From a virus, in IMG/VR virus record IMGVR_UViG_3300011113_000638, positions 1 through 32,018 of that record: a DNA stretch of 32,018 bases. One strand, 5' to 3'. Shown piece after piece: positions 1 through 15,948 of the stretch; positions within the stretch are counted from its first letter, which is position 1, and every line of letters starts with the position of its first letter. The notes beneath the pieces were generated by a model that saw nothing but the letters and a program-made list of their open reading frames with translations, did not search any database and was not told the DNA's origin. Position numbers and translations under genes: made by a program.

Positions 1-1232
1 TAGCTTACTACCTGCAAAGCCTGACCTTGCATGTCTTCTATCTGTTCACCGTAGGGATCTGTTTCGGCCTGTTTGTCCTCTAACTGCTTTTGTAAGGCTG
101 CTAAACTGCTTCGATGATGTATGGCATCCTCTTCTTTGTCGTAAAACATCACAGGCGGCTTGCCTAGCGTGCCCAGGGCTGAGTGGGCAGTCTCAAGTTC
201 TGATAGGAGCTGTGTATGCTCCGAGCACGCTTCTCTCGCTCGCTCCAGATCAGCCTGCTTACCCGCCAGGACCTGTTGGTGCTTATGGTCGTGGAAAGCC
301 TGCCCGCAAGTGTGACATGTGTGATCTTCAAGTGTCGCAATCTCCTTGCCAAGCTTCTCAATGCTTTTGTTCTCGCGGTCCTTATCAAGCTTCGTGCGGG
401 AGATCTGTCCAGCCAGGTCGTTAAGGTCTTTGCGCTTCTGATCCCATACTTTGTGGGCCTTGTGGGCCGCAATCTCGGCTTCAATGTCAATCTTCTTGAG
501 TTCTTCCAGCGCGGCCGTGAGTTTTTCGATCTCTTCTTCATGTCGGGTTGTCCATAAGGTTTGTCTACGCCTCAAGGCTTCGATCTGTTCTTCTATCCTT
601 TTATTGGCTTCTTGAACAGCTCGAATACGGAATTCTTCTTGCTGTATGGCTTCTTTGGTTTGTCTATTGTGTTCTTTGATACGGTCAGCACGTTCACTAA
701 GCATGGTAATGCCCAGCAACTGTTCAATGATGGTTCTTTGATCCGTGGCCTTGAGACTGAGAAATGGTTCAGTGTAGGTGTTGAGTGCCAGGATGTGTTT
801 GAACATGTCATGGCTGAGTCCCAGAACTGATTCTATGGCATCTTGCGTTTCTCTTGAATCGCCCTGTGCTTCATCAGTGACAGCCTGTTCTTGATTGTTC
901 ACATAGAATCGCAAGACATTGGGTTTGCGACCTCTCTCAATTCTATACTCTTTGCCACTCACACTAAAGTCTAAACTGACCAACATGTTTTTGTTGTTGG
1001 TCTTGTTGACCAGATTGTCCTTGCGTATGTTGCTGAGAGCCTGCCCATACAAGCTGTAGCTGAGAGCATTGATTATGGTGGTTTTACCTGTGCCGTTACG
1101 GCTGCCATCGCCGCCCAGATCTAAGTTTTCTCCCAACACAAGTGTCAAGTCCTTGCGGTCAAAATCAATGCCTTGTGTGGCATTGCCCACGCTCATGAAG
1201 TTTTTGACAGTGAGTTTTTTAATCTGAATCAT
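1..1232 (-). CDS. 46: Recombination endonuclease subunit gp46 (Rad50/SbcC-like ATPase), partial
   Basis: The gene reads leftward and runs off the window edge, so only the first 410 residues are visible (T4 gp46 has about 560). The N-terminal ATPase lobe carries a Walker A motif, GSRNGTGKTT, at residues 43-52. From about residue 175 the chain is rich in E, K, Q and R and reads as coiled coil. A CHTC zinc-hook motif lies at residues 306-309, as in Rad50/SbcC proteins. In this family the protein pairs with gp47 to process DNA ends for phage recombination and recombination-dependent replication. The start at 1232 gives a typical gp46 N-terminus (MIQIKKLTVKNFMSVGN). The Shine-Dalgarno match is poor (AGGA about 16 bases upstream), and the start lies inside the end of the SGNH-like gene, so translational coupling is likely. 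The identification is firm. Confidence 0.93.
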   Translation of the reverse strand, partial: MIQIKKLTVKNFMSVGNATQGIDFDRKDLTLVLGENLDLGGDGSRNGTGKTTIINALSYSLYGQALSNIRKDNLVNKTNNKNMLVSLDFSVSGKEYRIERGRKPNVLRFYVNNQEQAVTDEAQGDSRETQDAIESVLGLSHDMFKHILALNTYTEPFLSLKATDQRTIIEQLLGITMLSERADRIKEHNRQTKEAIQQEEFRIRAVQEANKRIEEQIEALRRRQTLWTTRHEEEIEKLTAALEELKKIDIEAEIAAHKAHKVWDQKRKDLNDLAGQISRTKLDKDRENKSIEKLGKEIATLEDHTCHTCGQAFHDHKHQQVLAGKQADLERAREACSEHTQLLSELETAHSALGTLGKPPVMFYDKEEDAIHHRSSLAALQKQLEDKQAETDPYGEQIEDMQGQALQVVS

Positions 1233-1935
1233 GTTCTAAAATATATTTTCCTGTGGCTAAATGCCCCTCTTCGAGCAAATGGTCGGTGGGACCAACAGGG
1301 TATGACGATACCATTTTGGTTAACCACCAAGTATTCCATCCTATATAATTTTCAAAATTTATTTGTCTGAGCAATTTTTGTATTTCGGTATGTTCTAAAA
1401 AAAGTTGCTGATTATTCATGAGATCAAAACACACTATTGATTTTACACTATTATTAAAGTTTTGCCAATCTACAGTAAACCTATCTATTAAATTATTGTC
1501 GGCATTGAGCATGATATACGGTTTATTGTTCGATTCTAAAAATCTCTGCAACAACACAATATCTTGTAACCAAGTTTTAAACGCATAGAGTTCGTTGTAC
1601 CAAATTTTGTAGTGTAGGTTTGCGTAGTCCTTGAAATTGGAATCGTTGCCATAAAGTTTGTGTTTTAATTGCACGTTGAAATTTACGTCGTGATTGTTGT
1701 CCGATCTATATCTTGTGAATCTACTGATGTAAGTCCATGCGATGTAGAATTTGTCAAAATCGTTCACGTGTTTGACCGTAAGATATTTTATACGATCATT
1801 GGTCCCGCCGCTGACTGCAAAATTAACAAACTCACAATTTTTCATCCGGCTAATCACAGACGGCCAAGCATCTTTGGATTGAAATTCCAAATCATCTCCG
1901 TAAGTATGACTACACCCATTGAAATACAATTTCAT
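1219..1935 (-). CDS. SGNH/GDSL-like hydrolase family protein, AT-rich
   Basis: This 238-residue protein starts with GCSHTYGDDL, which fits SGNH block I with Ser9 as nucleophile. SGGTNDRI at residues 42-49 fits block II (Gly44, Asn46). Near the C-terminus TDHLLEEGH (217-225) resembles block V, with His219 the likely catalytic His; the partner Asp is uncertain because Asp218 sits directly beside it. SGNH proteins are usually esterases, deacetylases or lipases, and the substrate here is unknown. The gene lies between gp47 and gp46, overlapping gp47 by 4 bases and gp46 by 14. It is much more AT-rich than its neighbours: two sample 60-base lines have 23% and 35% GC, against 62% for a line inside gp47. 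That suggests recent acquisition. The fold call is moderately sure; the activity is unproven. Confidence 0.7.
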   Translation of the reverse strand: MKLYFNGCSHTYGDDLEFQSKDAWPSVISRMKNCEFVNFAVSGGTNDRIKYLTVKHVNDFDKFYIAWTYISRFTRYRSDNNHDVNFNVQLKHKLYGNDSNFKDYANLHYKIWYNELYAFKTWLQDIVLLQRFLESNNKPYIMLNADNNLIDRFTVDWQNFNNSVKSIVCFDLMNNQQLFLEHTEIQKLLRQINFENYIGWNTWWLTKMVSSYPVGPTDHLLEEGHLATGKYILEHDSD

Positions 1936-2945
1936 AGATTTTGATAGATTTTCAACAGGAGCTTGGGATCGTAGAACTCGCTTTCAATGTTTGTGAGCTG
2001 ATCGGTCACGATCTGATCCACACTTTCAAATTTGACTTCTCCGGGGGCCATGTCGGCATCTACTGCGGTGCTCTTTACTGGGATCAAGGCCATTTCTCTG
2101 AGATTGTAATCTTTGACAAAGGTGTCTTTGATAAAATTGGCTTCTTCGTAGCTGATGTCAATGTCCAGTTCCACACGCACATGCATGTTGTCGGCCAACA
2201 AGTCTGGTGCCGAATCTATGACCTGACTCAGTTTCAATACCTTGTAAAGAGGTTGCCCAGGCCAGGCATGGAACACCGGCTCCTGCCCCCAGGTCAGGGT
2301 CATCATGCCACGTTCTGCATCGCCGGCATCGGCATAGTTGTGCGGAAAGCAATTGCCAATGTAGTGTATATTTTTCTTTTGCTGTCTCAAGTGGAAGTGC
2401 CCGCTGAACACACGCTCAAAGTTTCCAAAGTGATCCACCTGTATCTCGCCATGATCGGGCATCTCTACCATGGCATTCATTTTGAAATGTGGCAGTTCAA
2501 AGTGTCCAAACATGTATTGGCCGTTTAGCTTGGGTATGCGTCTATGATCATCCCCTACCAGCCAAGGTGCAATCACAACATCACCGTCCTGAAACCAGTC
2601 GTTGACAATTTGAATGTTGGGTATGTGTCGAGCCCATTCGGTGCTGTAGATGTCACGCTTGTCACGATAGTATAAATCGTGATTGCCTGGAATAAAATAA
2701 AATCTATCAAATGCGGCACTTAACTTTTCCAGACTACGTAGACTGTACTGTAATGTCTGCATGTTGATTGCGGCACGCTGATGGCTCCAATCGCCCAGGA
2801 ACATGCCGGTCTCGCAACCATTGGCTCGTGCTGTGGCAATAAACCAGTCAATGAAATCACTGCAATCTTGATTGTGTTGCAGGCTATTAGACTTCAACCC
2901 AAAGTGGATATCAGTGCAAACAGCAACTTTACGGAATAGACTCAT
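1932..2945 (-). CDS. 47: Recombination endonuclease subunit gp47 (Mre11/SbcD-like)
   Basis: At 337 residues this is almost the length of T4 gp47 (339). The metallophosphoesterase motifs occur in order: DIH at residues 12-14, GDWSH at 51-55, GNHD at 87-90, and a later GHFH motif, which together would bind two metal ions. In the known family it is the nuclease partner of gp46, resecting DNA ends during recombination and replication restart. It follows gp55 after a 12-base gap and its stop overlaps the start of the SGNH-like gene (ATGA type). The gene order 55, 47, 46 matches T4. The Shine-Dalgarno sequence is weak, so it may depend on translation arriving from gp55. The identification is firm. 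Confidence 0.95.
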   Translation of the reverse strand: MSLFRKVAVCTDIHFGLKSNSLQHNQDCSDFIDWFIATARANGCETGMFLGDWSHQRAAINMQTLQYSLRSLEKLSAAFDRFYFIPGNHDLYYRDKRDIYSTEWARHIPNIQIVNDWFQDGDVVIAPWLVGDDHRRIPKLNGQYMFGHFELPHFKMNAMVEMPDHGEIQVDHFGNFERVFSGHFHLRQQKKNIHYIGNCFPHNYADAGDAERGMMTLTWGQEPVFHAWPGQPLYKVLKLSQVIDSAPDLLADNMHVRVELDIDISYEEANFIKDTFVKDYNLREMALIPVKSTAVDADMAPGEVKFESVDQIVTDQLTNIESEFYDPKLLLKIYQNL

Positions 2946-2957
2946 TCAGCTATTATA

Positions 2958-3860
2958 CTATTCTTCTGTGACAATTACAACCGCACCTGGTGCCAGATCA
3001 GGATTCTTGCGACCAGCATTCTGTCTGGTCCAGCTAGGATTGAGGCCAGCCTGCTCCAGCATGTCGTCACGGATGTTTTGATTTTTCTTTTCTAAGTTGA
3101 GGATACGAGTAAAGCTGTTAGTGATAGCGGCAGTATAATACGCAAAAGGGTTCTGCGATTTTGATTCGTCGAACTGCAGGCCAATTTGGCTGAGTTGTAG
3201 TAGTGCTTGTCCGCGCATTTCTTCATTGTAGGTGTATCCTCTCCAGTTTGATCGTGTGGCATAGCGTTCACACAGTTTGATGAACATGGTGGCCAGTTTA
3301 CGGGTCATTTGGCCATGTTCACGGCAGAATTCACCGTGTTCAAGATCACCGCGCCAGTGGCTCTTGCCCACCAGGAAAGGAGTCTTGTTGGCATCTATGC
3401 GATAGTGATAGAACGGCGGAAAATTCAGCCTCACATGCTTGGGATCCAGCACAGGCTCTTCCAGCAGTTCGGCCAAGGGATCATCCTGTTCGATCAAGTC
3501 CAATTCAAATATGTCTTCTATGCTTTTTTTCTTTTTGGCCTCGGCCTTGGAGACTTTTTTGGGAGCCCAGGGTATGTGTTCCCAGCAGGTGACTCTGAAA
3601 ACCAAGTCTGTGTTGGGTATCTTTTTGGGATCAACTATGGTACCTTCACGCTTTAATCTATCGGCACGATTTCTGCGTGCTTCAGCTATGGTGCGCTGAT
3701 TGATCTTTTCCACTGTGGGCAGTATGATATCATACTGGTGGTCCGTGATAGGATCTAAGTAAGTGCAGTAGGTATTTTTGCTGAGATGTATTTCTTTTAA
3801 GATATCTCTGTTGTTGAGATAGTTGGTTTTTGCTGGTGTTCTGGTGGGTGTCGATGTCAC
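2958..3860 (-). CDS. 55: RNA polymerase sigma factor for late transcription, gp55-like
   Basis: The C-terminal third (about residues 202-268) resembles the sigma region 2 core of T4 gp55: a RGYTYNEEMRGQ segment, then FDESKSQNPFAYYTAAITNS, then an EKKNQ basic stretch. In T4, gp55 replaces the host sigma factor, recognises TATAAATA late promoters and works with the sliding clamp. This protein has 300 residues against 185 in T4. The extra sequence is N-terminal and includes a Lys-rich stretch (KKVSKAEAKKKKS). A GTG start at 3860 is chosen because AGGAG lies 7 bases upstream. An in-frame ATG at 3896 exists, but it would require translating the Shine-Dalgarno and the promoter -10 region. The gene heads the leftward operon and faces the late structural genes it is expected to activate. 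Confidence 0.88.
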   Translation of the reverse strand: MTSTPTRTPAKTNYLNNRDILKEIHLSKNTYCTYLDPITDHQYDIILPTVEKINQRTIAEARRNRADRLKREGTIVDPKKIPNTDLVFRVTCWEHIPWAPKKVSKAEAKKKKSIEDIFELDLIEQDDPLAELLEEPVLDPKHVRLNFPPFYHYRIDANKTPFLVGKSHWRGDLEHGEFCREHGQMTRKLATMFIKLCERYATRSNWRGYTYNEEMRGQALLQLSQIGLQFDESKSQNPFAYYTAAITNSFTRILNLEKKNQNIRDDMLEQAGLNPSWTRQNAGRKNPDLAPGAVVIVTEE

Positions 3861-3872
3861 TCCTGATCTCCT
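3861..3872 (-). promoter_or_regulatory. Ribosome binding site deciding the gp55 GTG start
   Basis: On the minus strand AGGAGATCAGGA ends directly before GTG. The AGGAG core is 7 bases from the start codon, which is ideal spacing. This favours the GTG at 3860 over the in-frame ATG at 3896. Confidence 0.75.
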
Positions 3873-3884
3873 AATAATATATTT

Positions 3885-3912
3885 ATTGTAGCACAAAAAC
3901 CCGATGTGTCAA
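3885..3912 (-). promoter_or_regulatory. Host sigma70-type promoter for the gp55-47-46 operon
   Basis: On the minus strand a perfect -35 hexamer TTGACA (3912 to 3907) is followed by a 16-base spacer and TACAAT (3890 to 3885), one mismatch from TATAAT. The bases just before the -10 are TGC, giving an extended -10 (TGCTACAAT). Transcription would start near 3878 and give a leader of about 18 bases containing the AGGAG of gp55. An ATAAATA string at 3880-3886 on the same strand overlaps the -10, so an added late or autogenous input from gp55 is possible but unproven. Confidence 0.72.
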
Positions 3913-3943
3913 CCTTTCTTTAACTGGGCCTATTTTGTTTTGG

Positions 3944-3951
3944 TTAAATAC
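3944..3951 (+). promoter_or_regulatory. T4-late-type promoter box TTAAATAC
   Basis: TTAAATAC resembles the T4 late consensus TATAAATA and lies just upstream of the first rightward gene. The box ends four bases before the ATG at 3955. T4 late transcription starts about six bases after the final A, so the mRNA would begin at or next to the start codon. No Shine-Dalgarno is visible. Confidence 0.55.
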
Positions 3952-3954
3952 AAG

Positions 3955-4338
3955 ATGTTGAATACCAATGCAGAACTACGACTAGACCCTGAGAGCCAGA
4001 CCCTAGTGGCCCAGCCACAGGCACGTCCATCCTTGAAAGACCTGGCCAAGATCAAGCATATATTTGGACCCAGTGTGTATATCAAGGCATTTTTTGTGCC
4101 CAAAGGAATCACAGTGGTCACCAAGGCCTTTCTGGAAGATCATGTCACGATCCTGGCCCAAGGCACTGTGGTAGTGGAAGACCCTGATGGTGTCAAGACC
4201 AAATATGTGGCACCAGCACATACTGTATTCCAGCAGGCCACACGCTATAGGTGCACTTGCATAGAGGACGCAGTGTGGTATTGTGTGCATCCTACCCAAG
4301 AAACTGATCAAGCTGTATTGATCAAACGATACGAATAA
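3955..4338 (+). CDS. Cupin-like small phage protein
   Basis: This 127-residue protein is predicted to be mostly beta. Its core, running from KAFFVPKGITVVTKAFLEDH through LAQGTVVVEDPDG and APAHTVFQQATRY to DAVWYCVHPTQETD, matches from memory a cupin-fold phage protein whose usual pattern is a VGKIHK-like segment, 'LSKGKV', 'APxTFxSxPGTKR' and 'DTVWTTIHxTDET'. The family's role is unknown, and the usual cupin metal-binding His cluster is not clearly kept. I place the start at 3955, not at an earlier in-frame ATG at 3904: that one has no ribosome binding site, would add 17 atypical residues, and lies inside the divergent promoter. It is the first gene of the rightward late block, directly under a late-type box. 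Confidence 0.65.
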   Translation: MLNTNAELRLDPESQTLVAQPQARPSLKDLAKIKHIFGPSVYIKAFFVPKGITVVTKAFLEDHVTILAQGTVVVEDPDGVKTKYVAPAHTVFQQATRYRCTCIEDAVWYCVHPTQETDQAVLIKRYE

Positions 4339-4353
4339 CAGGAATAGCATACC

Positions 4354-6261
4354 ATGGGTGGAATAGCAGAAGTTGCAACAGAATTTGTAGAAAGCTCAAC
4401 TGGTTTACTTGAACTAGCCAGTGACGTCAGTTCTGTGGTCACGGAATCGGGCCTGGAATTCCTCAACGAATTTGGCGGACCCGAATCATTTTTTGAAAGT
4501 AGCACAGGACTTCTTACACTGGGCAGTGATCTGGGCGCACTGGATGCCAGCTATGAACTGGTGGGTAGTTTTGCCGGCGATGCCAGTTGGTTTGATTTCA
4601 ATAATTTTGGCAGCATAATCGACACCGCCACCACGTTTGTGTCTGATTTCAACATCCCGTCGGCGGTGACAAACCAGATAACCGGAACTGCAATCAAAAC
4701 CGCCACCAACTTGGTCAGCAGTCAAATAGCTCAGATACCAGTCATAGGATCTTTTGCAGCGCCCATAACCAGGTCGCTGGCAGGTGCAGTGAATGCCAAC
4801 ATCGCCCAGACCCCGGGATTCAACCCCACGGCCGGTCCCAGCCTCAGTCAGCTCACAGGTATCACACCCAACATTGGCATACCCAATGTGCCCGGCATAC
4901 AGCTGGCAAGCCTGGGCAACAACATACCATTTAATCTACTTAAAACTCAAAACAGCACAGTTAGCGTGTCCGGGGTCAATGGTCAGCCATTGTCGATTCA
5001 AACTCCGGGATTCAATCCCACAGCCACGCAGGCTGTTAATCAAGACACTGGAGACTATTACACTCCAGTAAACAACACTGCTCCTTCAGTTACAGCCATA
5101 GACCGCTCGGCCGGCCCTGTGGGCTACACAGTTTCTGCAGATCCCGATGGCGGATTCGCTGTTGTAAATCTTCAAACCGGCCTGCCGGTGGCCACTGGAC
5201 TCACAGAACAACAGGCCTTGTTGCAGGCACAAGAACAGACTTTTATTGATGCTGGAGAAGTGCCTCAGCCGGGTCCTGACACAATTGGGCCTTTGGCCCG
5301 ACCACCGGGCGGATTTACTCCTGAACAACTCCGTGCCATAGCAGCAGCACAGGGTGTGGATGCTGGCGACATAGACTTGACCCAGATAGGTCCACAACAG
5401 ACCGAAGCGGCCTTGTTTGCTGCCGAAGCGGCCACCACAGCGGCCCTGCGTGATCAGGCACGCCAGCAACAGACCATACGTGCTCAACGGCAAAATCAAG
5501 CACAAAGCACTGATTGGCGTGTGCGTCTGCGCTTGGCACCCACCAGCGACTATCTGTACAATGCTCCTGACTGCGGCCCGGTGCTGTGGCCCTTGCGTGA
5601 CAGCGACGGAGTCATATTTCCTTATACTCCCAGCATAGACATTGGCTACAAGGCCAACTATGACAGTTACGACTTGATACACAGCAACTATCGCGGTTAT
5701 TTTTACAAAAACAGTCACATAGATCAAGTGCAGATCAAGGGCACGTTCACAGCCCAGGACACCACCGAAGCCAACTATTTGCTGGCCGTGATACATTTTT
5801 TCCGCTCAGTGACCAAGATGTTCTATGGACAAGATGCCCAGCGTGGCAGTCCACCACCCTTGACCTACTTGTCAGGATTAGGCGACTATCAGTTCAGTGA
5901 ACATCCTTGTGTGGTCACCCAGTTCAACTACAACCTGCCGTCGGATGTCAACTACATCCGGGCACAGAGCGTGTTGTCCAATGGCAACAACCTGCTGAAT
6001 GCCCGCAAGCGGCAGACCGTGTTGGGCAATCCCTTGAGCTATGCCCTACAACGTCTCAGTACCGTGGGCATGAGCAAGGGCGGGCTGGATCAGCCTTTTG
6101 CACCCAGCGGCAGCCTGGGCGCAGACAACAGCACCTATGTGCCCACCAAGATGGACATCAGTCTGACCTTGTTGCCCATGCAGAGCCGTAGCCAGGTCAG
6201 CAAGCAGTTCAGTCTGCAAGGATTTGCCAATGGTAATCTGCTCAAAGGAGGATTCTGGTAA
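4354..6261 (+). CDS. Baseplate/tail-tube-type structural protein (possible gp48/gp54 counterpart)
   Basis: The protein has 635 residues in two parts. Residues 1 to about 385 are low in complexity, Ala/Gln/Thr/Pro-rich, with internal repeats: FVESSTGLLELASDV (11-25) against FFESSTGLLTLGSDLG (46-61), and QTPGFNPTA at 152-160 and again at 216-224. The C-terminal part (about 387-635) is compact: a DWRVRL start, FPYTPSIDIGYKANY, then VQIKGTFTAQDTTEANYLL and AVIHFFRSVTKMFYG. This pattern recalls tube-fold baseplate proteins such as T4 gp48 and gp54, which cap the baseplate and start the tail tube. That assignment is inferred from pattern and position ahead of gp53. AGGA lies 10 bases before the ATG. 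It ends in TAATG, overlapping the next gene by one base. Confidence 0.55.
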   Translation: MGGIAEVATEFVESSTGLLELASDVSSVVTESGLEFLNEFGGPESFFESSTGLLTLGSDLGALDASYELVGSFAGDASWFDFNNFGSIIDTATTFVSDFNIPSAVTNQITGTAIKTATNLVSSQIAQIPVIGSFAAPITRSLAGAVNANIAQTPGFNPTAGPSLSQLTGITPNIGIPNVPGIQLASLGNNIPFNLLKTQNSTVSVSGVNGQPLSIQTPGFNPTATQAVNQDTGDYYTPVNNTAPSVTAIDRSAGPVGYTVSADPDGGFAVVNLQTGLPVATGLTEQQALLQAQEQTFIDAGEVPQPGPDTIGPLARPPGGFTPEQLRAIAAAQGVDAGDIDLTQIGPQQTEAALFAAEAATTAALRDQARQQQTIRAQRQNQAQSTDWRVRLRLAPTSDYLYNAPDCGPVLWPLRDSDGVIFPYTPSIDIGYKANYDSYDLIHSNYRGYFYKNSHIDQVQIKGTFTAQDTTEANYLLAVIHFFRSVTKMFYGQDAQRGSPPPLTYLSGLGDYQFSEHPCVVTQFNYNLPSDVNYIRAQSVLSNGNNLLNARKRQTVLGNPLSYALQRLSTVGMSKGGLDQPFAPSGSLGADNSTYVPTKMDISLTLLPMQSRSQVSKQFSLQGFANGNLLKGGFW

Positions 6262-6560
6262 TGGCCAACTATGATTCTACCAGCCCTTACTACACCACGG
6301 GCTACACTCAGTTCTATCTCAGTCCCATGGTCAATAGACCCATACCCAAATTGCCTGACGATCGACAGATGGTCATCAATCAGACCTATCAGTATCGTCC
6401 AGACATGCTGGCCTTTGACCTTTATGAGACTCCAACCTTGTGGTGGGTGTTCTATCAACGCAATCCCAATACCCTGCAAGCACCTCCCCTGGATTTCAAA
6501 GAGGGTGTGACCATATATGTGCCCAAGATAACTACCCTGCGCGAAGTGCTGGGATTCTAG
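6261..6560 (+). CDS. 53: Small baseplate protein, gp53/LysM-like
   Basis: The protein has 99 residues. The stretch TYQYRPDMLAFDLYETPTLW, followed by WVFYQRNPNTL and a closing PLDFKEGVTIYVPK, follows the pattern of LysM-like or gpX-like baseplate proteins, to which T4 gp53 is related: a residue-poor start, a Trp-Trp pair, an Asn-Pro turn, and 'G-x-x-I-x-V-P' at the end. In T4, gp53 joins the baseplate wedges to each other. This protein is about half the length of T4 gp53 (196). A strong AGGAGG lies 9 bases upstream within the end of the preceding gene, and the ATG overlaps that gene's stop by one base, so the two are probably made together. Confidence 0.65.
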   Translation: MANYDSTSPYYTTGYTQFYLSPMVNRPIPKLPDDRQMVINQTYQYRPDMLAFDLYETPTLWWVFYQRNPNTLQAPPLDFKEGVTIYVPKITTLREVLGF

Positions 6561-6561
6561 C

Positions 6562-9500
6562 ATGAGTGAAGTAACCAATCTGTCCACCCGCATAGCGCTG
6601 TTACAGACACAGTTGTCGCGTAATCTGGCAGAACTGGCCGTAGCCCAGCGCACAGCGGCCAACAGCTTGGTCACAGGCAGACTGCAGGATGTCATAGCCC
6701 AACAAGAACAGGAACTGGCCCAGTTGCAGACACAACTGGCTCAGGCACAACAGCGTGCGGCCCTAGGCACAGCCAGCGCAGGCAATCTGGCCCGAGATGA
6801 TCAGCAGGCCACAGTGCCTGGATCAAGGCCGCAGACTCCACTGTCAGATCCGCAGATACTCACACCCAACGGTCGCATACAAGCGCAACCCGATACCACC
6901 ACAGCCACCACAGCCACACCCCCTGTCACAGAAAACTCCACAGACTCGGGCACCGACGCACCGGTAAGGCCCATTACACAAACACAGGCCACTCCGGCCT
7001 ATGGTCCAGGCTTACTCAGAGATCCCGGCGATGCTGATGCACAGGAAGGTGGATTTTACGGTGGCGGTCAAGCACCTATAGCGGCCACACAGGCAGGATT
7101 TGGTGCCGGCGGCGAAGAAGCTGCACCACGCAATGCCACACGGGTAGAAATTGACAACATATTCACAGAAACACAGATCACTCCACAACCCAATGTGCTG
7201 GATCAGTACGCCAGTTATACCTATGCCGTTTCAGTTTATCTAGCGCCAGTTGAACAGTACAAGACCATGCTGGAGACCAAACAACGCACTCTCACTGGCA
7301 GTCAATTGTTGTTCCAGAGTGGTGGTGCACCCACTGGGGGTCGCAATCAGTTTTTCAGCCTGGACTACTACATAGACAAGTTGGAAATCAAGAGCTTTAT
7401 CGTGGGCAAAGGCACTGGACTCACACACAATGCCAAAGAAATCAACATGACCGTGATAGAACCCAATGGCATCACCTTGATCGACAATCTCACCCGTGCT
7501 GTACAGGCCATCATGCCCGACAGTGAAACCAAGAAAAGCATAACCAGCGCGATCTATCTCATGGTCATAAGATTTTATGGCTATGATGCACAGGGCAATT
7601 TGGTGCGTGGTGGAGTGGCCAGACCTGATGGAACCACAGATCCCAATGCATTCATTGAAAAATGGTATCCGTTTATCATCAAAGACATCAAATTCCGGGT
7701 GGCCAACAAAACCGTGGAATATGACATATCGGCCGCGGCTCCGCAGTTTCAGATCGCTGCAGGACAGGCCCGTGGCACTATACCTTTCAACATCGAACTC
7801 AGTGGACAGACCATCAAAGACTTGTTGAGTGGTCCTTTGCAATACAGCACCAATCAGGCCAGCGTGAGTGTGGGTGGCAACAATGCGGTGGTGCCCACAG
7901 AGACCTACGAAGATTTTATATCCGCCGCTCCGGCCAAGGCCGATGCAGCCCCCACTACCAAGGCCACTGTGCGTCAAGGTCTCATGGCCGCTCTTAATCA
8001 GCATCAAAGAGATCTAGAAGCCAGCCGACCCGGTTATGTGGCCGATGAATACAGTATAGAATTCGTGGGTGCCGGCAACGGGCCCACGGCCATTGAACAG
8101 GCACGCCTGCGCCCACCGGGCGGCCTGGACAAAAAAGGCACCAGCAACTCCACTCCGGGCACACCAGCTGATGCCAAACTGCCCAACAAGCAAAGCATGG
8201 ACCCTAACAGCCGCACACAAGGTGCCACCGCGGGCATGCAGATTGTCCAGTTCCTGGATCAGGTGTTGAGAAACAGCACCTATCTCAAAGACCAACAAGA
8301 GGTGATCATAGACCCAGTAACGCAAGAAGAAAAGTTCAATGGCACACCGGCACAAAATGTGGCCTGGTTCAAGATCAGTTTGGAAGCCATACCCAAAGAA
8401 AAGTTTGACACTGTGCGCAATCAGTATGCTTACAAAATCAAATATACTATTAGCCCTTACAGAATAGCTGATCTAAAAAGCAAATATTTCCCTACCCCCC
8501 GATTTACCGGCGTGCAGAAAGAATACAAGTACTGGTTCACAGGCGAAAACACTTCGGTGTTGAACTATGAAGAAAACATCAATGGGCTCTACTACTTGAC
8601 CTTGAGTGGAGCAGGAGTCAATCTCTCCGGAACCTATCTCAATCAAGAGGGTGAAAAGATCAACTATAATTTCCAAACTGCCAGCACAGAAAGCAGCCAA
8701 GGAGCCGACGGCAAGGTCAATGAACCCGTGGCCAACGCCAGCGAATACCTGTTCCAGCCTGGTGCCCTGAAGGAAGCCAATGTTACCATAGTGGGTGATC
8801 CGGCTTGGTTACAACAGGGCGAAGGCAGTCTGGGCCAGCTCAAAAGGAACTGGAATTTTGGCAGCTTTTTGCCCGACGGTACCTTGAACTTTGATGGTGG
8901 ACAGATCCTATTCCGCATAGCGTTCAACGCACCTGCTGACTATGACTCCGACTATGGACTGGTGCGCCCAGGTCTAGCGACCAGCCAGGCACCCGGCCCT
9001 GCACAAGGTGCACCCAATGGACCAGCACAAATAAATCGTGTTTATATTGCTCACACTGTGACCAGCTCGTTCAATCGCGGTAAATTCACGCAACAATTGG
9101 TTGGCGCACTAAAACTAGATCTCAGCACCAATGACAACACAGCAGCTCGGGTAGCACGCATTGGAGAACAACAACAGGCCATAGCCGGCATGAGTGGCAC
9201 ACGAACATTGGCATCCTCTAGCGTAGGATCAACCTTGGCTTCTACACTGGGTACTACCTTGACCGGTGTTGCCGCCACCAGTTATGTGCCGCCAGTGATA
9301 CCAAGCACCTTTGGCCAAGGACTGCGTGTGCCCACCAGCTTGGTCAACAATGTGCTGGGAGGCCAGACAACTCGACCGTCGAGTCTGCCTAGGTTACCTA
9401 CTAGTTTTGGTCTTCCTATAGGTACATTTGATGCCACCTCTCCACTGCGCTTGCCCGGAGCTGTAACCAATTTCTCTCAGACCATCAATGATGCCGCGGT

Positions 9501-9699
9501 TGGCACACAAAGAACTATACGAGGTGTAGTCGACTCGGTAAGTAACGGAGCCACACAAACTGTGGCCGGTAGTGATGACTCTGGTCTGGGCTTGATAAGC
9601 TCACCCATAGCAGAAACACCGTATCAGTCGCCGCAAACATCTGATTTGATTTCAGAACCCGTGGCTGAATTCAATGCCAACAACGACTTTTTTGGATAA
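6562..9699 (+). CDS. Large baseplate hub protein (gp27-like candidate)
   Basis: The protein has 1045 residues in distinct blocks. Residues 1-75 form a Gln/Leu/Ala-rich coiled coil (LQDVIAQQEQELAQLQTQLA). Residues 76-190 are Thr/Pro/Gly/Gln-rich linker. Residues 193-440 form a conserved core containing LDYYIDKLEIKSFIVGKGTG, NMTVIEPNGITL and WYPFIIKDIKFRV. A second linker follows. A second core spans about 558-850 and includes KEYKYWFTGENTSVLNYEEN and NGLYYLTLSG, a pattern found in hub proteins of the gp27/VgrG-N kind. The tail, about 870-1045, is again Thr/Ser/Gly-rich. Its place between gp53 and the gp5-like spike fits the hub that holds the spike. T4 gp27 has only 391 residues, so this would be a much enlarged version. 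The function is inferred from pattern and position. Confidence 0.55.
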   Translation: MSEVTNLSTRIALLQTQLSRNLAELAVAQRTAANSLVTGRLQDVIAQQEQELAQLQTQLAQAQQRAALGTASAGNLARDDQQATVPGSRPQTPLSDPQILTPNGRIQAQPDTTTATTATPPVTENSTDSGTDAPVRPITQTQATPAYGPGLLRDPGDADAQEGGFYGGGQAPIAATQAGFGAGGEEAAPRNATRVEIDNIFTETQITPQPNVLDQYASYTYAVSVYLAPVEQYKTMLETKQRTLTGSQLLFQSGGAPTGGRNQFFSLDYYIDKLEIKSFIVGKGTGLTHNAKEINMTVIEPNGITLIDNLTRAVQAIMPDSETKKSITSAIYLMVIRFYGYDAQGNLVRGGVARPDGTTDPNAFIEKWYPFIIKDIKFRVANKTVEYDISAAAPQFQIAAGQARGTIPFNIELSGQTIKDLLSGPLQYSTNQASVSVGGNNAVVPTETYEDFISAAPAKADAAPTTKATVRQGLMAALNQHQRDLEASRPGYVADEYSIEFVGAGNGPTAIEQARLRPPGGLDKKGTSNSTPGTPADAKLPNKQSMDPNSRTQGATAGMQIVQFLDQVLRNSTYLKDQQEVIIDPVTQEEKFNGTPAQNVAWFKISLEAIPKEKFDTVRNQYAYKIKYTISPYRIADLKSKYFPTPRFTGVQKEYKYWFTGENTSVLNYEENINGLYYLTLSGAGVNLSGTYLNQEGEKINYNFQTASTESSQGADGKVNEPVANASEYLFQPGALKEANVTIVGDPAWLQQGEGSLGQLKRNWNFGSFLPDGTLNFDGGQILFRIAFNAPADYDSDYGLVRPGLATSQAPGPAQGAPNGPAQINRVYIAHTVTSSFNRGKFTQQLVGALKLDLSTNDNTAARVARIGEQQQAIAGMSGTRTLASSSVGSTLASTLGTTLTGVAATSYVPPVIPSTFGQGLRVPTSLVNNVLGGQTTRPSSLPRLPTSFGLPIGTFDATSPLRLPGAVTNFSQTINDAAVGTQRTIRGVVDSVSNGATQTVAGSDDSGLGLISSPIAETPYQSPQTSDLISEPVAEFNANNDFFG

Positions 9700-9702
9700 C
9701 AC

Positions 9703-11304
9703 ATGTCAGAAAATATACAACGCAGCCGAGGTCGCCCACAGAACTACAAGTTTGATCGTGGTGGCATGCCTGCGGAAATGGGCCCTTTCATTGGCATAGT
9801 GGTCAACAACATAGATTCTACTAGACAAGGACGCCTACAGGTCTACATAGAACAGTTTGGTGCAGACACCAAAAACGGCACACCGGATCTGACAGACCCC
9901 ACCCTGTGGCGCACAGTCAGCTACTGCCCGCCATTCTATGGAGCCACACCACAGTCTGGTACCAGTGCCGGAGCCGGCACCTATCCAGGCAACCGAAACA
10001 GTTATGGCATGTGGTTCACGCCTCCAGATCTAGGCACGCGAGTTCTGTGCTTTTTTGTGGCCGGCGATCCGGGCCAGGGCTACTATGTAGGGTGCATACC
10101 CGAAGATGGCATCAATCACATGATTCCAGCCATTGGTTCAAGCACTCGTTATGTGGCCGGCAATCCCTCCCAAGAAAATCTTTTTGTCAACACACCCCTG
10201 TTGCCGGTTACCGAAATCAATGAAAAAAACTCTGGTATCAACAACAATCCTAGATTTTTTGACGCACCCAAACCTGTTCAGAGTGTGGTGGCTGGTATCT
10301 TGTTTCAGCAAGGACTCAACCGCGATCCCATACGTGGTCCTATACGCAGTAACAGTCAGCGTGAAAGTCCTAGCACGGTTTATGGCATTTCTACACCGGG
10401 CAAACCCATATATCAAGGCGGTCTAGATCCCAAGACCATAACCACAAAATTAGAAAAAGGCGAGATACGGCCTCAGGACGTGGTAGTGGTAGGACGTCAA
10501 GGTGGCCATACCTTGGTCATGGACGACGGAGATCTAGCCGGAACCGACACTCTGGTGCGCATACGCACAGCCAAAGGTCATCAGATCACCATGAGCGATG
10601 ACGGTGACTGTTTCTACATCACTCATGCCAATGGTCAGACCTGGATTGAACTGGGCAAGGCCGGCACCGTGGACGTGTTCAGCACCAATTCAGTAAACAT
10701 ACGCACCCAAGGTGACATCAACTTGCATGCCGATCGCAACATCAACATGTATGCTGGTGGTGGCATAAGAATGAAGACCATAGGCACCCTTAAACTACAA
10801 GGCGATGCCGGCATGACCATGTATTCAGACCAGACCATTACCATGTTTGGCAAGACCAAGGTTGGCATCAGAAGTGATGGTGTGTTGGCTCTCAAAGGCA
10901 AGACCAGCAGCTGGGATGGTGGTAATAGTTTGAATCTTAAAGGCAAGGTCATCAATCTCAATGGTGCAGCCACACAACCTGTGACTGCGGTGCCTAGTAT
11001 GCAAGGCTTTAAATTGGCCGATACCGCATTTGTGACCGGCCAAGGCTGGACCGTGCAACCCGGCACTCTTGATACCATAGTTACTCGGGCTCCTACGCAT
11101 GAACCTTGGCCTTATCACAACCGGGGAGTAAATGTCAATACCAATCTAAACAGCAGTGCCACACCTGCGACACCCAGTATTGAATCTTTGGCTGGATCAG
11201 CCTACCAAAGAACCGGCGCAACCGCTGTGCAAAAACCCATTGGTCCAGAAAACTATGTGTCTGAACCCCCATCCATACAATCAGTGCCAACCAACCAGGA
11301 ATAA
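9703..11304 (+). CDS. 5: Baseplate central spike, gp5-like, without lysozyme domain
   Basis: The protein has 533 residues. The N-terminal part (about 25-150) is an OB-fold of the gp5/VgrG type: GPFIGIVVNNIDSTRQGRLQ, then VYIEQFG, then GTRVLCFFVAGDPGQGYYVG. From about 322 to 400 alternating short strands (SVNIRTQGDINLHADRNINM and similar) form the triple-stranded beta-helix needle typical of gp5 C-termini. Near the C-terminus is APTHEPWPYHNRGV, a PTHEP-type motif. T4 gp5 carries a lysozyme domain between the OB-fold and the needle. Here the equivalent stretch (about 150-300) is Pro/Asn/Gly-rich with no lysozyme catalytic pattern. The trimer would puncture the outer membrane mechanically, and peptidoglycan cutting must come from elsewhere. 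The start follows the hub stop by three bases. Confidence 0.85.
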   Translation: MSENIQRSRGRPQNYKFDRGGMPAEMGPFIGIVVNNIDSTRQGRLQVYIEQFGADTKNGTPDLTDPTLWRTVSYCPPFYGATPQSGTSAGAGTYPGNRNSYGMWFTPPDLGTRVLCFFVAGDPGQGYYVGCIPEDGINHMIPAIGSSTRYVAGNPSQENLFVNTPLLPVTEINEKNSGINNNPRFFDAPKPVQSVVAGILFQQGLNRDPIRGPIRSNSQRESPSTVYGISTPGKPIYQGGLDPKTITTKLEKGEIRPQDVVVVGRQGGHTLVMDDGDLAGTDTLVRIRTAKGHQITMSDDGDCFYITHANGQTWIELGKAGTVDVFSTNSVNIRTQGDINLHADRNINMYAGGGIRMKTIGTLKLQGDAGMTMYSDQTITMFGKTKVGIRSDGVLALKGKTSSWDGGNSLNLKGKVINLNGAATQPVTAVPSMQGFKLADTAFVTGQGWTVQPGTLDTIVTRAPTHEPWPYHNRGVNVNTNLNSSATPATPSIESLAGSAYQRTGATAVQKPIGPENYVSEPPSIQSVPTNQE

Positions 11305-11306
11305 TC

Positions 11307-12083
11307 ATGATCACCAGAGGACAGGTCACAGCACTCACAGCACAGGCAAAACAAGCAGCCACTTATGAATATGTGGATGGTGCAGGCAATCTATTGCCAG
11401 ACTGGTACTTTAACGATGCAGGAGTGCCTGTGTATTTGGGCACCGAAGTTGCCACCCGAGGTGTGGGTCTATACGGACAAACTGCAGAAAATCTTGTGTT
11501 GGTAGAACTGCTGAAACCAGCGTCCTTGCAACTCATAGTCGAACCCAGTATGACCATTACAGTGCTGAACACTCCTGCGGCCTGGACTGGTCTATTCAAT
11601 ATCAACAGTTTGGTGGATTACTTAAATTCACCAGCCATACAAAATCTGGCTCAAATTGCCTTGTATGAAGGAGCATATCAGGGCCTTATTGATGCAGGCG
11701 TACTCAACGGTGCCGAGACAGCTAGATATCAGGCCACATTCATACAACCAGCTGCCAGATATGGAGTGGATGCTGTGGTGGACTGGGTACGGGGCACAGC
11801 ACCCACAGATCTTGCCACAAAAATACAAATTGCCGCCAGACAGGCACAATATGCCATAGACTTTGTTGATACCTATGGTCCAGAGTTAAATGTGGCACCC
11901 GAGTTGGGCGGCTTTGATAACACAGTGTTCCGTGAAGAAGTAGATCAGGCGGTAGCAGATATTATCAGTAATCCCAGGATACCGCCCATAGAATATGCCA
12001 ATGTTGCTGTTCCGGTAACCGTACCTGCGGTTACCACAGAAGACGGAACCTTGCGATTTGCTCCTGGAGCGCCACGAGGTTAA
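11307..12083 (+). CDS. Conserved phage protein of unknown function, next to the spike gene
   Basis: The protein has 258 residues and no family I can name. It starts with MITRGQVTALTAQAKQAA. A segment with GLYGQTAENL and LLKPASL is followed by AAWTGLFNINSLVDYLNSPA and then a mainly helical block with GAYQGLIDAGVL and AARYGVDAVVDWVRG. The C-terminus is Val/Pro/Thr-rich. No signal peptide, membrane segment or catalytic motif is apparent. The helical block recalls a repeat seen in other aquatic myovirus proteins, from memory only. AGGA lies 6 bases before the ATG, and the gene starts two bases after the spike gene, so the two are co-translated. Its place between gp5 and gp25 suggests a baseplate or spike-associated part. 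A peptidoglycan-related role is possible but not shown. Confidence 0.6.
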   Translation: MITRGQVTALTAQAKQAATYEYVDGAGNLLPDWYFNDAGVPVYLGTEVATRGVGLYGQTAENLVLVELLKPASLQLIVEPSMTITVLNTPAAWTGLFNINSLVDYLNSPAIQNLAQIALYEGAYQGLIDAGVLNGAETARYQATFIQPAARYGVDAVVDWVRGTAPTDLATKIQIAARQAQYAIDFVDTYGPELNVAPELGGFDNTVFREEVDQAVADIISNPRIPPIEYANVAVPVTVPAVTTEDGTLRFAPGAPRG

Positions 12084-12086
12084 ATA
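12080..12086 (+). promoter_or_regulatory. T4-late-type box TTAAATA before gp25
   Basis: The box overlaps the stop codon of the preceding gene and ends 7 bases before the gp25 ATG at 12094. The predicted start near 12092 would leave a leader of about two bases. GAGG at 12076 lies upstream of the predicted RNA start and could only serve read-through transcripts. Confidence 0.5.
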
Positions 12087-12093
12087 ACTGATC

Positions 12094-12468
12094 ATGGCAA
12101 CATTTATTGGATTTAACACACAGGACCAGTTCAAAAAGTTTACCCTGCTGGATGCTGAGCTGGTCAAAAGAGACCTGCTGAATGGTCTTAACATACGCCA
12201 AGGCCAACTGCCAGGTCGTCCACAGTATGGCACAGCATTGTGGGACAACTTGTTTGAAAATCAAACCAACGAAACCACACAGAGCATTGAGCGAGAAATA
12301 CAGCGTGTGGCCGGCTACGACCCCAGGATACAGATATCTAATGTGGAAGTTTTTCCACAGGAAAATGGCCTGCTGATCCAGGTAGAATTGGCCATAGTTC
12401 CCAGCACAGATGCACAGCGCCTGAGCATATTTTTTGATCAACAACAGCGCCGTGCCAGCTATGTTTAA
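12094..12468 (+). CDS. 25: Baseplate wedge protein gp25-like
   Basis: The protein has 124 residues, close to T4 gp25 (132). The family pattern is clear: LVKRDLLNGLNIRQGQLPGR, then PQYGTALWDNLFENQ, then IEREIQRVAGYDPRI, and finally VEVFPQENGLLIQVELAIVP. In contractile tails gp25/GPW proteins help join the wedges to the sheath and trigger sheath assembly. The neighbours agree, since gp6 follows directly. There is no well-placed Shine-Dalgarno before the ATG, which follows a late-type promoter box by only 7 bases, so this gene may be translated from a leaderless message as well as by read-through from upstream. Confidence 0.92.
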   Translation: MATFIGFNTQDQFKKFTLLDAELVKRDLLNGLNIRQGQLPGRPQYGTALWDNLFENQTNETTQSIEREIQRVAGYDPRIQISNVEVFPQENGLLIQVELAIVPSTDAQRLSIFFDQQQRRASYV

Positions 12469-12488
12469 CTGAGCCGTTTTTCACATCC

Positions 12489-12496
12489 ATAAATAC
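12489..12496 (+). promoter_or_regulatory. T4-late-type promoter box ATAAATAC before gp6
   Basis: ATAAATAC lies in the 45-base gap between gp25 and gp6. The predicted RNA start near 12501 leaves a 13-base leader containing AGGAAG at 12505-12510, just before the ATG at 12514. This is the only noteworthy content of the gap; no hairpin terminator is seen there. Confidence 0.65.
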
Positions 12497-12513
12497 AAGA
12501 ATACAGGAAGATT

Positions 12514-15500
12514 ATGGCCAAGACTACAAGACAAACAGTGATTTTTGGTGTGGAAGATTGGAGGAGGATCTATCAGACCTACCGAGAAGCCGACTTCCAA
12601 AGCTACGATTTTGAAACACTGCGCAAGAGTTTTGTGGACTATCTGCGCCTGTACTATCCTGAAACCTTCAATGACTATATTGAAAGCTCAGAATTTATTG
12701 CCTTGCTGGATGTCATGGCATTCATGGGCCAGAGTCTGGCCTTCCGCACAGACCTTAACACACGCGAAAATTACATAGACTCTGCTGAACGCAGAGACAG
12801 CGTGGTACGCCTGGCAAACTTGGTCAGTTACACACCCAAGCGCAACATTGCTTCCCAGGGCTATCTCAAAGTTTTCAGTGTGCAGACCACACAAAACGTA
12901 ACTGATATCAATGGCATTGATTTGGCCAATGTCACAGTCAACTGGGCTGATCCTACCAATGCCAGCTGGCAAGAACAATTTACGGCCATTATCAACGCGA
13001 CCTTGGTTGATAGCCAGCGTGTGGGTGTGCCTGGTGCCAGGACCACTATACTGGGAGTAGACACCGCTGAATACAGCATCAATTTAGTTCCTGGGTTTCT
13101 ACCAGTAGTGCCCTACACTGCCACTGTTGATGGCATCAACATGCCGTTTGAAGCTGTGACAGCCAGCACAGTGGGCAAGTCCTATGTGTATGAACCCAGT
13201 CCTAGACCCAACGGCATATTCAACGTGTTGTTCCGTAATGATCAGTTGGGTTTCAGCTCGGGCAATACCGGATATTTTTTCTTGTTCAAACAAGGAGTTC
13301 TACAAAATCAAGATTTTAACCTGGCCGACCGTGTGAGCAATCGCGCAGTGGACATCAACATTGAAGGTATCAACAACGAAGACCGTTGGTTGTATCAGTT
13401 GGACAATGTGGGTAGCATTGCCAGTGAATGGGAGTATGTGCCTAGTGTGTATGGTGCTGCTGCTGAACAGACTGGCCCAGGCTTGAGAAAACTTTTTAGC
13501 ACCACCAGCCGTACCAACGATCAGATCACCTTGGACTTCGGTGACGGAGTGTTTTCGGCCATACCTGTGGGACAGTTCCGTTGTTATGTGCGAGCCAGCA
13601 ATGGTTTGCAATACATAATCAATCCTGAGGAAATGCAAAGCGTGGTCATACCCATCAGCTATGTGAGCCGCACTGGTCAACTTGAAACCATAACATTCAC
13701 CTGCGGCATCACAACACCGGTGAGCAACGCACAACCCAGAGAAACCATCAACGAAATCAAGGCACGTGCTCCAGCTCGATACTACACACAGGATCGCATG
13801 GTCAATGGTGAAGACTACAACAACTTTCCATTCACTGCCTACAACAGCATACTAAAAAGCAAGGCCCTGAATCGTGCTTCAATTGGAACCAGTCGATATC
13901 TTGACTTGGTAGACAACACTGGCAAATACTCCAGCACCAACACATTCAGCAGCGATGGTGCGCTGTATGAAAACTACAGCCTGCCCAGTTTTCAATTTAC
14001 CACACAGACCAACAACGAAATTGACGAAGTCATTGTAAATCAGATTCAGCCGTTGCTGGGAACCAGTCAAGCACAGCAATTTTACTATGCTGAATTTCCT
14101 AGATCCAGTCTGGTACCACTGAACGTGAGTTGGAACCTCAGCACCAGCCAGGCCAATACCACCACTGGCTATTTTAAGAACAGTCTGGGCAATCCAGTCA
14201 GCATTGGCAGTTTCAGCTCCAACAACACCAGATACATCACAGTGGGAAGTCTGGTCAAATTCGTACCACCAGCCGGCTACTACTTTGACGCCAACAATAG
14301 ACTAAAAGCAGGCACCCCCACACGTGCCGACGAAAAATTAGTGATCTGGGCCAGCCCCCTGGAAATCTACATTGATGGTACCAATCAGGGCTTGGGAAAT
14401 TTTGCCAATGGTATTGGACCCGTGGCACTCAACAACTACATACCCACAGATGCCATAGCCACACAGGTCATACCTATTTTTGTTACAGACTTGCCAGTGT
14501 CTTTTGAAACCAGCATGGCCGAACAGATACGTCTGCGCAGGAACTTTGGTATAGGTTATGATAATTTAGGAACAATCACAGGCACAGCCGGAACCTGGTA
14601 TTTGATTACCAGCACTAACCTGGCTGTAGATAGCAACTGGAGCCAGACCTATGCCGGCAACACCACCGGAGCTAATCTAGATGCTTCTTGGTTGGTAGAA
14701 TTTGTTTTCAATGGCAGTTTTTATACTGTGAGCTATCGTGCCCTGGACTACTATTTTGGCAGCGTGGTACAAACAAGATTTTTCTTTACATCTGATCAAC
14801 AGATCTATGACAGCCGCACCGGCACCACCATCAGCGACTTTATCAATGTGTTGAAGACCAACAGCCGGCCTGACTCAGCTCTGCCCTTGGGGTCTGATAT
14901 CATAACAAAGATAGTGGGTCAACCCATACAAACTGATGGCTTGGTTGACGACTATCAGATCTTGGTTTCATTCCAGGATCGCGACAATGACGGTGTTCCT
15001 GACAACCCTGATTTTTTCACGGACATAGTTGGTGCAGTACCAGATCCAGCCACAGCCAACAGTCCCTGGGTGTTCTTACAAAGCATAGTTGATTTTGACA
15101 ATCTCCAGAGATATGTGCTAATAGATTCTGGCATCGTCAACAGCGAATATGCTACCTTGGATGACATTGAACTGGTCAAGGCCGAATACGTGGCCGGCCA
15201 GGTGTTTTATGCCTACGAGTCAGCCACGTTCTATGTTTTAGCGATAAGTCCTACCACAGGTGTGCGAACCTTGCAAGCAACCACAGATTACATAGCACGC
15301 AACGGTCGGCAAAATCTATTTTTCCAATACAGACACAACAGTCCATTGAGCAACAGGATCGATCCCGGAACCAGCAACATCATCGACTTGTATGTGGTTA
15401 CCAACGAATATTACACGTCTTATCAAAACTACATCAGAGACACCACCGGCACCGTGGCTGAGCCAATACCTCCGACCATTGATTACTTGACCACCACCTA

Positions 15501-15948
15501 CGGCGGTCTGCAAGATTACAAGATGATTTCAGATACCGTGATTCTTAACAGCGTGGAATTTCAACCCTTGTTCGGTGCCAAGGCACCCGAGCAACTGCGA
15601 GCCACAATAAAGGTGATCCGTGCAGCCAACAGCGTGGCCAGCACCAGCGAGATCAAGAATCTGGTGGTGCAAAATCTCAACAATTATTTCAGTATAGATG
15701 TTTGGGATTTTGGTGACACATTTTATTTTTCAGAGTTGTCAGCCTACTTGCATGACCAAATGGCTGGCATAATCAGCAGTGTGGTCTTGGTGCCCTTGAA
15801 TCCTCAAAAGAGTTTTGGTGACCTTTATGAAATCCGTTGCGCACCCAATCAAATATTTGTTAATGCGGCCACGGTGGCCAATGTAGAAGTCATTGAAGCC
15901 TTGACCAGCAACAACATACGCACTGCTCCTGGCAGCGGAGTAATCTAA
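12514..15948 (+). CDS. 6: Baseplate wedge protein gp6-like, enlarged
   Basis: The protein has 1144 residues; T4 gp6 has 660. The N-terminus carries the gp6 signature, LLDVMAFMGQSLAFRTDLNT followed by RENYIDSAERRDSVVRLANL. The C-terminus matches gp6 again: IDVWDFGDTFYFSELSAYLH, then GIISSVVLVPLNPQKSFGDL. Gp6 dimers form the ring of wedges in the contractile baseplate. The added length lies in the middle and holds mostly beta sequence. One insert contains DRDNDGVPDNPD at residues 822-833, like a thrombospondin type-3 calcium-binding loop. Another has AEYVAGQVFYAYESATFYVL, resembling a carbohydrate-binding module of the CBM5/12 kind. AGGAAG precedes the ATG, and the stop overlaps the next start by one base (TAATG). 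Confidence 0.92.
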   Translation: MAKTTRQTVIFGVEDWRRIYQTYREADFQSYDFETLRKSFVDYLRLYYPETFNDYIESSEFIALLDVMAFMGQSLAFRTDLNTRENYIDSAERRDSVVRLANLVSYTPKRNIASQGYLKVFSVQTTQNVTDINGIDLANVTVNWADPTNASWQEQFTAIINATLVDSQRVGVPGARTTILGVDTAEYSINLVPGFLPVVPYTATVDGINMPFEAVTASTVGKSYVYEPSPRPNGIFNVLFRNDQLGFSSGNTGYFFLFKQGVLQNQDFNLADRVSNRAVDINIEGINNEDRWLYQLDNVGSIASEWEYVPSVYGAAAEQTGPGLRKLFSTTSRTNDQITLDFGDGVFSAIPVGQFRCYVRASNGLQYIINPEEMQSVVIPISYVSRTGQLETITFTCGITTPVSNAQPRETINEIKARAPARYYTQDRMVNGEDYNNFPFTAYNSILKSKALNRASIGTSRYLDLVDNTGKYSSTNTFSSDGALYENYSLPSFQFTTQTNNEIDEVIVNQIQPLLGTSQAQQFYYAEFPRSSLVPLNVSWNLSTSQANTTTGYFKNSLGNPVSIGSFSSNNTRYITVGSLVKFVPPAGYYFDANNRLKAGTPTRADEKLVIWASPLEIYIDGTNQGLGNFANGIGPVALNNYIPTDAIATQVIPIFVTDLPVSFETSMAEQIRLRRNFGIGYDNLGTITGTAGTWYLITSTNLAVDSNWSQTYAGNTTGANLDASWLVEFVFNGSFYTVSYRALDYYFGSVVQTRFFFTSDQQIYDSRTGTTISDFINVLKTNSRPDSALPLGSDIITKIVGQPIQTDGLVDDYQILVSFQDRDNDGVPDNPDFFTDIVGAVPDPATANSPWVFLQSIVDFDNLQRYVLIDSGIVNSEYATLDDIELVKAEYVAGQVFYAYESATFYVLAISPTTGVRTLQATTDYIARNGRQNLFFQYRHNSPLSNRIDPGTSNIIDLYVVTNEYYTSYQNYIRDTTGTVAEPIPPTIDYLTTTYGGLQDYKMISDTVILNSVEFQPLFGAKAPEQLRATIKVIRAANSVASTSEIKNLVVQNLNNYFSIDVWDFGDTFYFSELSAYLHDQMAGIISSVVLVPLNPQKSFGDLYEIRCAPNQIFVNAATVANVEVIEALTSNNIRTAPGSGVI

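Follow-up and report, generated by a model that had tools for sequence, protein, structure and literature searches.

Late transcription systems close to the one analysed here have been described in phage T4 and in Pectobacterium jumbo phage CBB. The function of gp55 in T4 is treated in passages of a review (PMC2988020) and of a structure paper (PMC7892883); T4 late promoters read TATAAATA, with a TAAATA core and no –35 element, and T4 gene 55 lies within a same-strand cluster rather than divergent from a late gene. For CBB, passages of the study on CBB and GAP32 promoters (PMC5259590) describe a host-like promoter immediately preceding gp55 (Porf_244), give 35 places at which an ATAAATA motif stands ahead of structural genes, report that no gp33 or gp45 was found, and are silent on leaderless messages. 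For AR9, passages of PMC5312081 describe some genes as dual early/late, that is, continuously expressed, in a system that differs from the present one by two polymerases of its own, tandem rather than overlapping promoters, and leaders of 26–491 nt.

Here, we analysed positions 1–32,018 of the phage record IMGVR_UViG_3300011113_000638 from IMG/VR (this whole 32,018-nucleotide stretch of ca. 32 kb is referred to as the window). Bases 3861–3955 probably form a divergent control region that is conserved in a group of jumbo myoviruses; transcription would there be handed over from host sigma to the phage's own sigma, and many late messages of the group would be leaderless. The basic layout is partly in print for CBB, which shares the same divergent gene order, and the sigma cascade is ordinary in kind and well conserved. 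Two aspects appear new: the host-type promoter of the sigma gene itself contains a putative late box, and late messages are predicted to be leaderless. The features of the region and its leftward flank are the following.

3–1232, minus: gp46/SbcC-like gene, named from position and sequence, running off the left end
1219–1935, minus: gene matching DUF6071, between the gp47 and gp46 genes
1932–2945, minus: gp47/SbcD-like nuclease gene (phrog_100, E=2.3e-55), downstream of gp55
2958–3860, minus: gp55-like late sigma gene, 300 aa, GTG start at 3860 (phrog_12791, phrog_234)
3872–3868, minus: Shine-Dalgarno AGGAG of gp55
3886–3880, minus: late-type box ATAAATA, overlapping the last two bases of TACAAT
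3893–3892 (TG), C, and 3890–3885 (TACAAT), minus: extended –10; predicted sigma70 start at about 3878
3912–3907, minus: –35 TTGACA, preceded by GG, with a 16-base spacer to the –10
3944–3950, plus: late-type box TTAAATA, 31 bases from the gp55 promoter, reading into the virion genes
3955–4338, plus: short tail fibre-like gene, ATG at 3955 (phrog_12032, E=3.1e-15)

The product of 2958–3860 matched phrog_12791 (E=1.2e-75) and phrog_234 (E=4.5e-23), and a profile built from 11 jumbo-phage gp55 relatives, T4 excluded, matched T4 gp55 (PDB 7d7c_F) at E=5.2e-10. By these matches the gene is a T4-type gp55 homologue including the sigma2-like core, and the first-pass annotation was right that the leftward promoter serves a late sigma factor gene. 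Most of the aligned jumbo-phage gp55 proteins differ from that of T4 by ca. 100 extra residues between the first segment and the sigma2-like core, which are also missing from S-RIM32 and XacN1. No T4-like clamp-binding C-terminal tail could be aligned in the jumbo gp55 proteins, the motif being short and the alignment poor there, and a PF02916 search for the gp45 clamp was silent in the five whole relative genomes (0/5), as were that search's controls. The lack of a gp45 match and of an evident T4 clamp tail suggests that the late machinery may differ from that of T4.

On the plus strand, the short tail fibre-like gene is followed by genes for a virion protein and for gp53-like, hub/lysozyme-like, gp25-like and gp6-like baseplate proteins ('gp53' and 'gp6' being names given here to matches of the PHROG 'baseplate wedge subunit'). 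A 4370-codon open frame (15948–29060, plus strand) comes after the gp6-like baseplate gene. Family matches and the gene order of relatives both indicate that the two directions read into the late sigma gene and into virion genes, as had been proposed. Across 102–131 bases, gp55-gp47-gp46 faces virion genes in RaK2, PBECO4, CBB and PA5oct, and gp55 and its neighbour likewise diverge in Atu_ph07, Phosso, SCTP-2, XacN1 and Vibrio phage 2.275; they do not in cyanophage S-RIM32 and T4. The gene opposite gp55 varies (short fibre-like, virion protein and others), while the box and its spacing to gp55 are constant. The gp47 and gp46 genes are adjacent in RaK2 and PA5oct; in the window they are separated by the DUF6071-match gene (1219–1935), which we take to be SGNH-like in look.

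Relatives of gp55 were drawn from IMG/VR and from named phages, yielding 217 input loci (80 and 127 environmental, 10 named; L361 and L362 were left out). Atu_ph07 gp55 as a query returned only Atu_ph07 itself. After removal of 8 loci with fewer than 110 bases upstream, of repeats identical over 100 bases and of loci without a start candidate, 146 regions were retained. Among the 136 environmental ones, 95 carried TTGAC(A/C)-16-TAnnnT and another 35 TTGACn-17/18. The 95 were picked without regard to the divergent box or to the bases that follow the –10.

The gp55 promoter (TTGACA-16-TACAAT with TG) carries 11 of the 12 sigma70 consensus bases together with the TG of an extended –10, and the minus-strand TTGACA, 16-base spacer and extended –10 that had been read into gp55 are indeed present at 3912–3885. 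It is the best of 20 sigma70-like matches in bases 1–16000, a number at background (20.2 ± 4.8 in shuffles). As such matches are no commoner than in shuffles, frequency alone was rejected as support for a sigma70 promoter, and a chance origin is excluded by conservation in relatives rather than by match count. TTGACA was found in 94, GGTTGAC in 95, TACAAT in 77 and TG in 86 of the 95 distinct relatives, although this conservation is partly by choice because the regions were chosen by their promoter. The divergent TAAATA and GGTTGAC were invariant in 95/95, with 37–42 bases between box and –35; each position of TATTTA and GGTTGAC reached 2.0 bits, as against less than 0.8 at many flanking positions. 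In the full set, an opposite-strand TAAATA lay 75–125 bases before gp55 in 135 of the 146 regions, including PA5oct, RaK2, PBECO4, CBB, XacN1 and Atu_ph07. The first-pass annotation had proposed a comparison of related contigs, in which the –35 and –10 hexamers, the TTAAATA box and the overlapping box all proved conserved.

The plus-strand box TTAAATA was found at 3944–3950 within 95 bases of the gp55 start, as had been claimed. The sequence here is GGTTAAATA and departs from the full T4 octamer TATAAATA; the bases before TAAATA vary in these phages, and according to a passage of PMC1524935 the T4-like phage Aeh1 also departs from T4 in them. The T of the box lies 10 bases from ATG 3955 with no Shine-Dalgarno between, a point that the first-pass annotation did not contain, and a spacing of 10 recurs in loci L443–L447. 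The ATG at 3904 was rejected as start of the plus gene, as in L009, L445 and L446 its frame terminates ahead of the box. The conserved block between both promoters was also considered as a regulon, which was rejected because no convincing second copy was apparent in five genomes.

The other late-type box, ATAAATA, overlaps the leftward –10. This overlap, equally foreseen, stands for the window and its relatives, being kept as TAA(A/G)TA in 86 of 95 (related clades, and hence not independent events); it does not hold for the ten named phages, whose gp55 promoters lack the overlapping box, which means that the basic divergent layout does not require it. CBB likewise differs in having a variant –35 and no late box over the gp55 –10. 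The five bases after the –10 read AAATA in 51, AAGTA in 35 and otherwise in 9 of the 95 regions, the overlap being limited to the region's own clade and a sister clade (TAAATA 51, TAAGTA 35). In five of the nine exceptions (L280, L282, L291, L298 and L313) TAAATA sits in the spacer instead; the other four (L060, L072, L239 and L309) have neither. Of the TAAGTA copies, 9 of 17 in relative G008 and 12 of 43 in the other four genomes had leaderless spacing, and it is plausible that TAAGTA acts as a weaker late box.

The five whole relatives (G001–G004 and G008, comprising L083–L150 and L449–L467; 337, 317, 321, 344 and 364 kb) contain 201 non-coding host-type promoters of the form TTGACn-16..18-TAnnnT. 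AARTA follows the –10 in five of these, exactly the five gp55 promoters; as these are homologous, this shows specificity to gp55 and not five origins. In two pattern searches, 6 of 7 and 4 of 6 whole records each contained a single copy of the promoter with its overlap, the match in G012 being counted irrespective of gene. The idea that late boxes generally accompany host-type promoters was rejected, as TAARTA (counted as two hexamers) lay in 20 of the 201, per hexamer no more than the four control hexamers with 48. The T4 geometry would put a late start from the overlapping box at about 3874, just 5′ of the gp55 Shine-Dalgarno, which stays intact; this Shine-Dalgarno lies 13 bases after the T of the box and falls in the genome-wide range.

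That range was obtained from the spacing between the T of TAAATA and the first start-codon base, on which scale the T4 rule puts the transcript start at 11. A simple frame picker found 285 non-coding TAAATA in the five genomes that have a start no more than 59 bases away, of which 111 lay at spacing 10–14 (107 ATG; 1 with a Shine-Dalgarno), 17 at 7–9, 18 at 15–20 and 67 at 21–36 with a Shine-Dalgarno. An ATG at 10–14 without Shine-Dalgarno followed 106/285 TAAATA versus 52/784 for seven control hexamers (p=2e-31), and, in support of TAAATA as the core, 85/233 of its sites were leaderless-type versus 48/681 for seven control hexamers (p=1e-24), p-values that overstate independence because related genomes are pooled. 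Each single-base variant of TAAATA lost the positional signal, the preceding bases being variable. Without gene calling, ATG frames of at least 80 codons followed 146 of 871 TAAATA at 10–14, as compared to 11 at 6–9 and 16 at 15–19; the same count at 10–14 gave 3/225 in T4, 2/306 in RaK2, 4/611 in PA5oct and 1/159 in S-RIM32. In XacN1, 17 of 133 TAAATA had an ATG frame at 10–14, and none in either flanking bin. T4, although similar in the spacing of its Shine-Dalgarno units, differs in that only 1 of 36 boxes (a TTG) lies 10–14 bases from a start.

Bare TAAATA counts were rejected as a signal, since genomes richer in A+T contain about as many as expected or fewer; the discriminating features are position and conservation only. 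Counting TAAATA-N4-8-ATG crudely, without a frame test, gave no excess in most named phages (XacN1, 25 against 8 for the reversed control). Leaderless-type units did not prefer AUG significantly (ATG in 107/111 at 10–14 versus 60/67 leadered, p=0.10).

Leaderless mRNAs, which lack a Shine-Dalgarno and carry their AUG at the 5′ end or no more than a few bases from it, occur in mycobacteria, in Caulobacter and as phage lambda cI. The present case would differ in that such messages are predicted for whole gene sets read by a phage sigma. Leadered-unit Shine-Dalgarnos begin at least 11 bases after the box T in 106/109 cases versus 74/133 for controls (p=2e-15), which places the transcript start no later than about 11; the first leaderless-type AUGs lie at 10. 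Together, the Shine-Dalgarno and AUG positions suggest a late-promoter start ca. 10–11 bases after the box T, with no –35. This bracketed position agrees with a passage of PMC1524935, in which the T4 box spans –13 to –6; with T4 geometry, transcripts at a spacing of 10 would begin at the second base of the AUG. Four further units in the window illustrate both classes.

12081–12096, plus: leaderless-type unit; TAAATA 12081–12086, ATG 12094 of the gp25-like gene (PF04965, E=4.4e-11), spacing 13, no Shine-Dalgarno
12490–12516, plus: leadered late unit; TAAATA 12490–12495, AGGA, ATG 12514 of the baseplate wedge gene (phrog_10646, E=7.3e-281), spacing 24
29064–29079, plus: leaderless-type unit; TAAATA 29064–29069, ATG 29077 of a 48-codon frame
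29860–29890, plus: leadered late unit; TAAATA 29860–29865, ATG 29888, spacing 28

The 32-kb record thereby holds three short-spaced units (3955, 12094 and 29077) and two leadered ones (12514 and 29888), plus gp55. In whole relatives, the portal gene is short-spaced in G001 and G002, tail tube and sheath genes are leadered in G001, and several homing endonuclease genes are short-spaced. Among 80 portal homologue loci (L363–L442), of which 63 were distinct with enough upstream sequence, 37 had a spacing of exactly 13 without Shine-Dalgarno and 22 a spacing of 23–33 (21 with it), with none between; 4 had no usable box, three because the match started inside the gene. Genes opposite gp55 (n=146) comprised 15 short-spaced ones, all without Shine-Dalgarno, and 117 longer-spaced ones, 104 with it. 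Major capsid genes of five relatives and XacN1 had no box within 60 bases of their starts and bear on neither class.

Host-type promoters show the same habit: the start codon lay 11–16 bases after the first –10 base in 34 of the 201, none with a Shine-Dalgarno, and leaderless spacing was found in 11 of 126 host-type promoters of XacN1 (L177–L196). Leaderlessness as a property of gp55 promoters only was therefore rejected in favour of a phage-wide habit, which may reflect a habit of the host. A clear Shine-Dalgarno precedes 119/301, 116/278, 123/290 and 120/287 genes in four genomes (T4, 92/151); with only about 40% of genes carrying one, its absence alone is weak evidence.

We propose that, leftward, host sigma70-RNA polymerase would read the near-consensus promoter, presumably early, and make gp55 and gp47. 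Rightward, gp55-RNA polymerase would read TAAATA and start the virion gene cluster, with a transcript whose 5′ end, judging by the spacing, most likely lies at AUG 3955, give or take about one base, and which would be leaderless. About twenty such leaderless late genes per genome are predicted from spacing in these phages. Transcription beginning nearer the box than predicted from T4, giving short leaders without a Shine-Dalgarno, would also account for the short spacing, and many genes in these phages lack a Shine-Dalgarno anyway. We regard this as unlikely, since Shine-Dalgarnos stop abruptly at 11 after the box T (an upper, not a lower, bound on the start) and since portal genes have either 13 without Shine-Dalgarno (37) or 23–33 (21 of 22 with it), with no intermediates.

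In the region's own clade and its sister clade, the late box in the gp55 –10 is placed as for other Shine-Dalgarno late genes, and gp55, once made, could sustain transcription of its own gene from a start some 4 bases further on, by taking over from sigma70 the –10 that both share. As the shared bases would prevent both polymerases from binding together, gp55-RNA polymerase might conversely occlude sigma70 and shut gp55 off; such negative autoregulation seems quite improbable, given that the box lies 13 bases before an intact Shine-Dalgarno, as in other leadered units, and binding should yield a translatable mRNA. A more serious possibility, if still a doubtful one, is that the two promoters form a plain divergent early/late pair, with the gp55 promoter read by sigma70 only and AARTA acting as a discriminator for fast opening. 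The sister clade's poorer box TAAGTA, the named phages' host-type gp55 promoters without overlap and the four regions with neither form of the box would all fit such a pair. Yet AARTA occurs at that place in 0 of the 196 other host-type promoters of the five genomes, and lost overlap copies are often offset by TAAATA in the spacer. A fuller reading, slightly less likely than not, is that a large group of environmental jumbo phages has a leaderless late programme in which at least about 20 late messages per genome would begin from the AUG while genes such as tail tube and sheath are leadered, combined with self-maintenance of gp55 via the nested late promoter. If such a leaderless programme operates, promoter position alone would set how a late gene is translated. 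A literature search, with most subscription journals outside its scope, returned no report of leaderless gp55-type late messages or of a late box nested in a gp55 –10.

The 95 bases offer a testable model for phage transcription hand-over from host sigma to the phage's own sigma. Phage-wide leaderless late messages are suggested, so far from spacing alone, also in the cultured phage XacN1, and the portal gene, present in both forms among relatives, provides a natural experiment on the role of the leader. Gene callers that depend on a Shine-Dalgarno would misplace leaderless-type starts. The 48-codon frame at 29077–29223, which has leaderless-type spacing, ends in a stop codon shared in part, as ATGA, with the start of the following gene (ATG at 29220).
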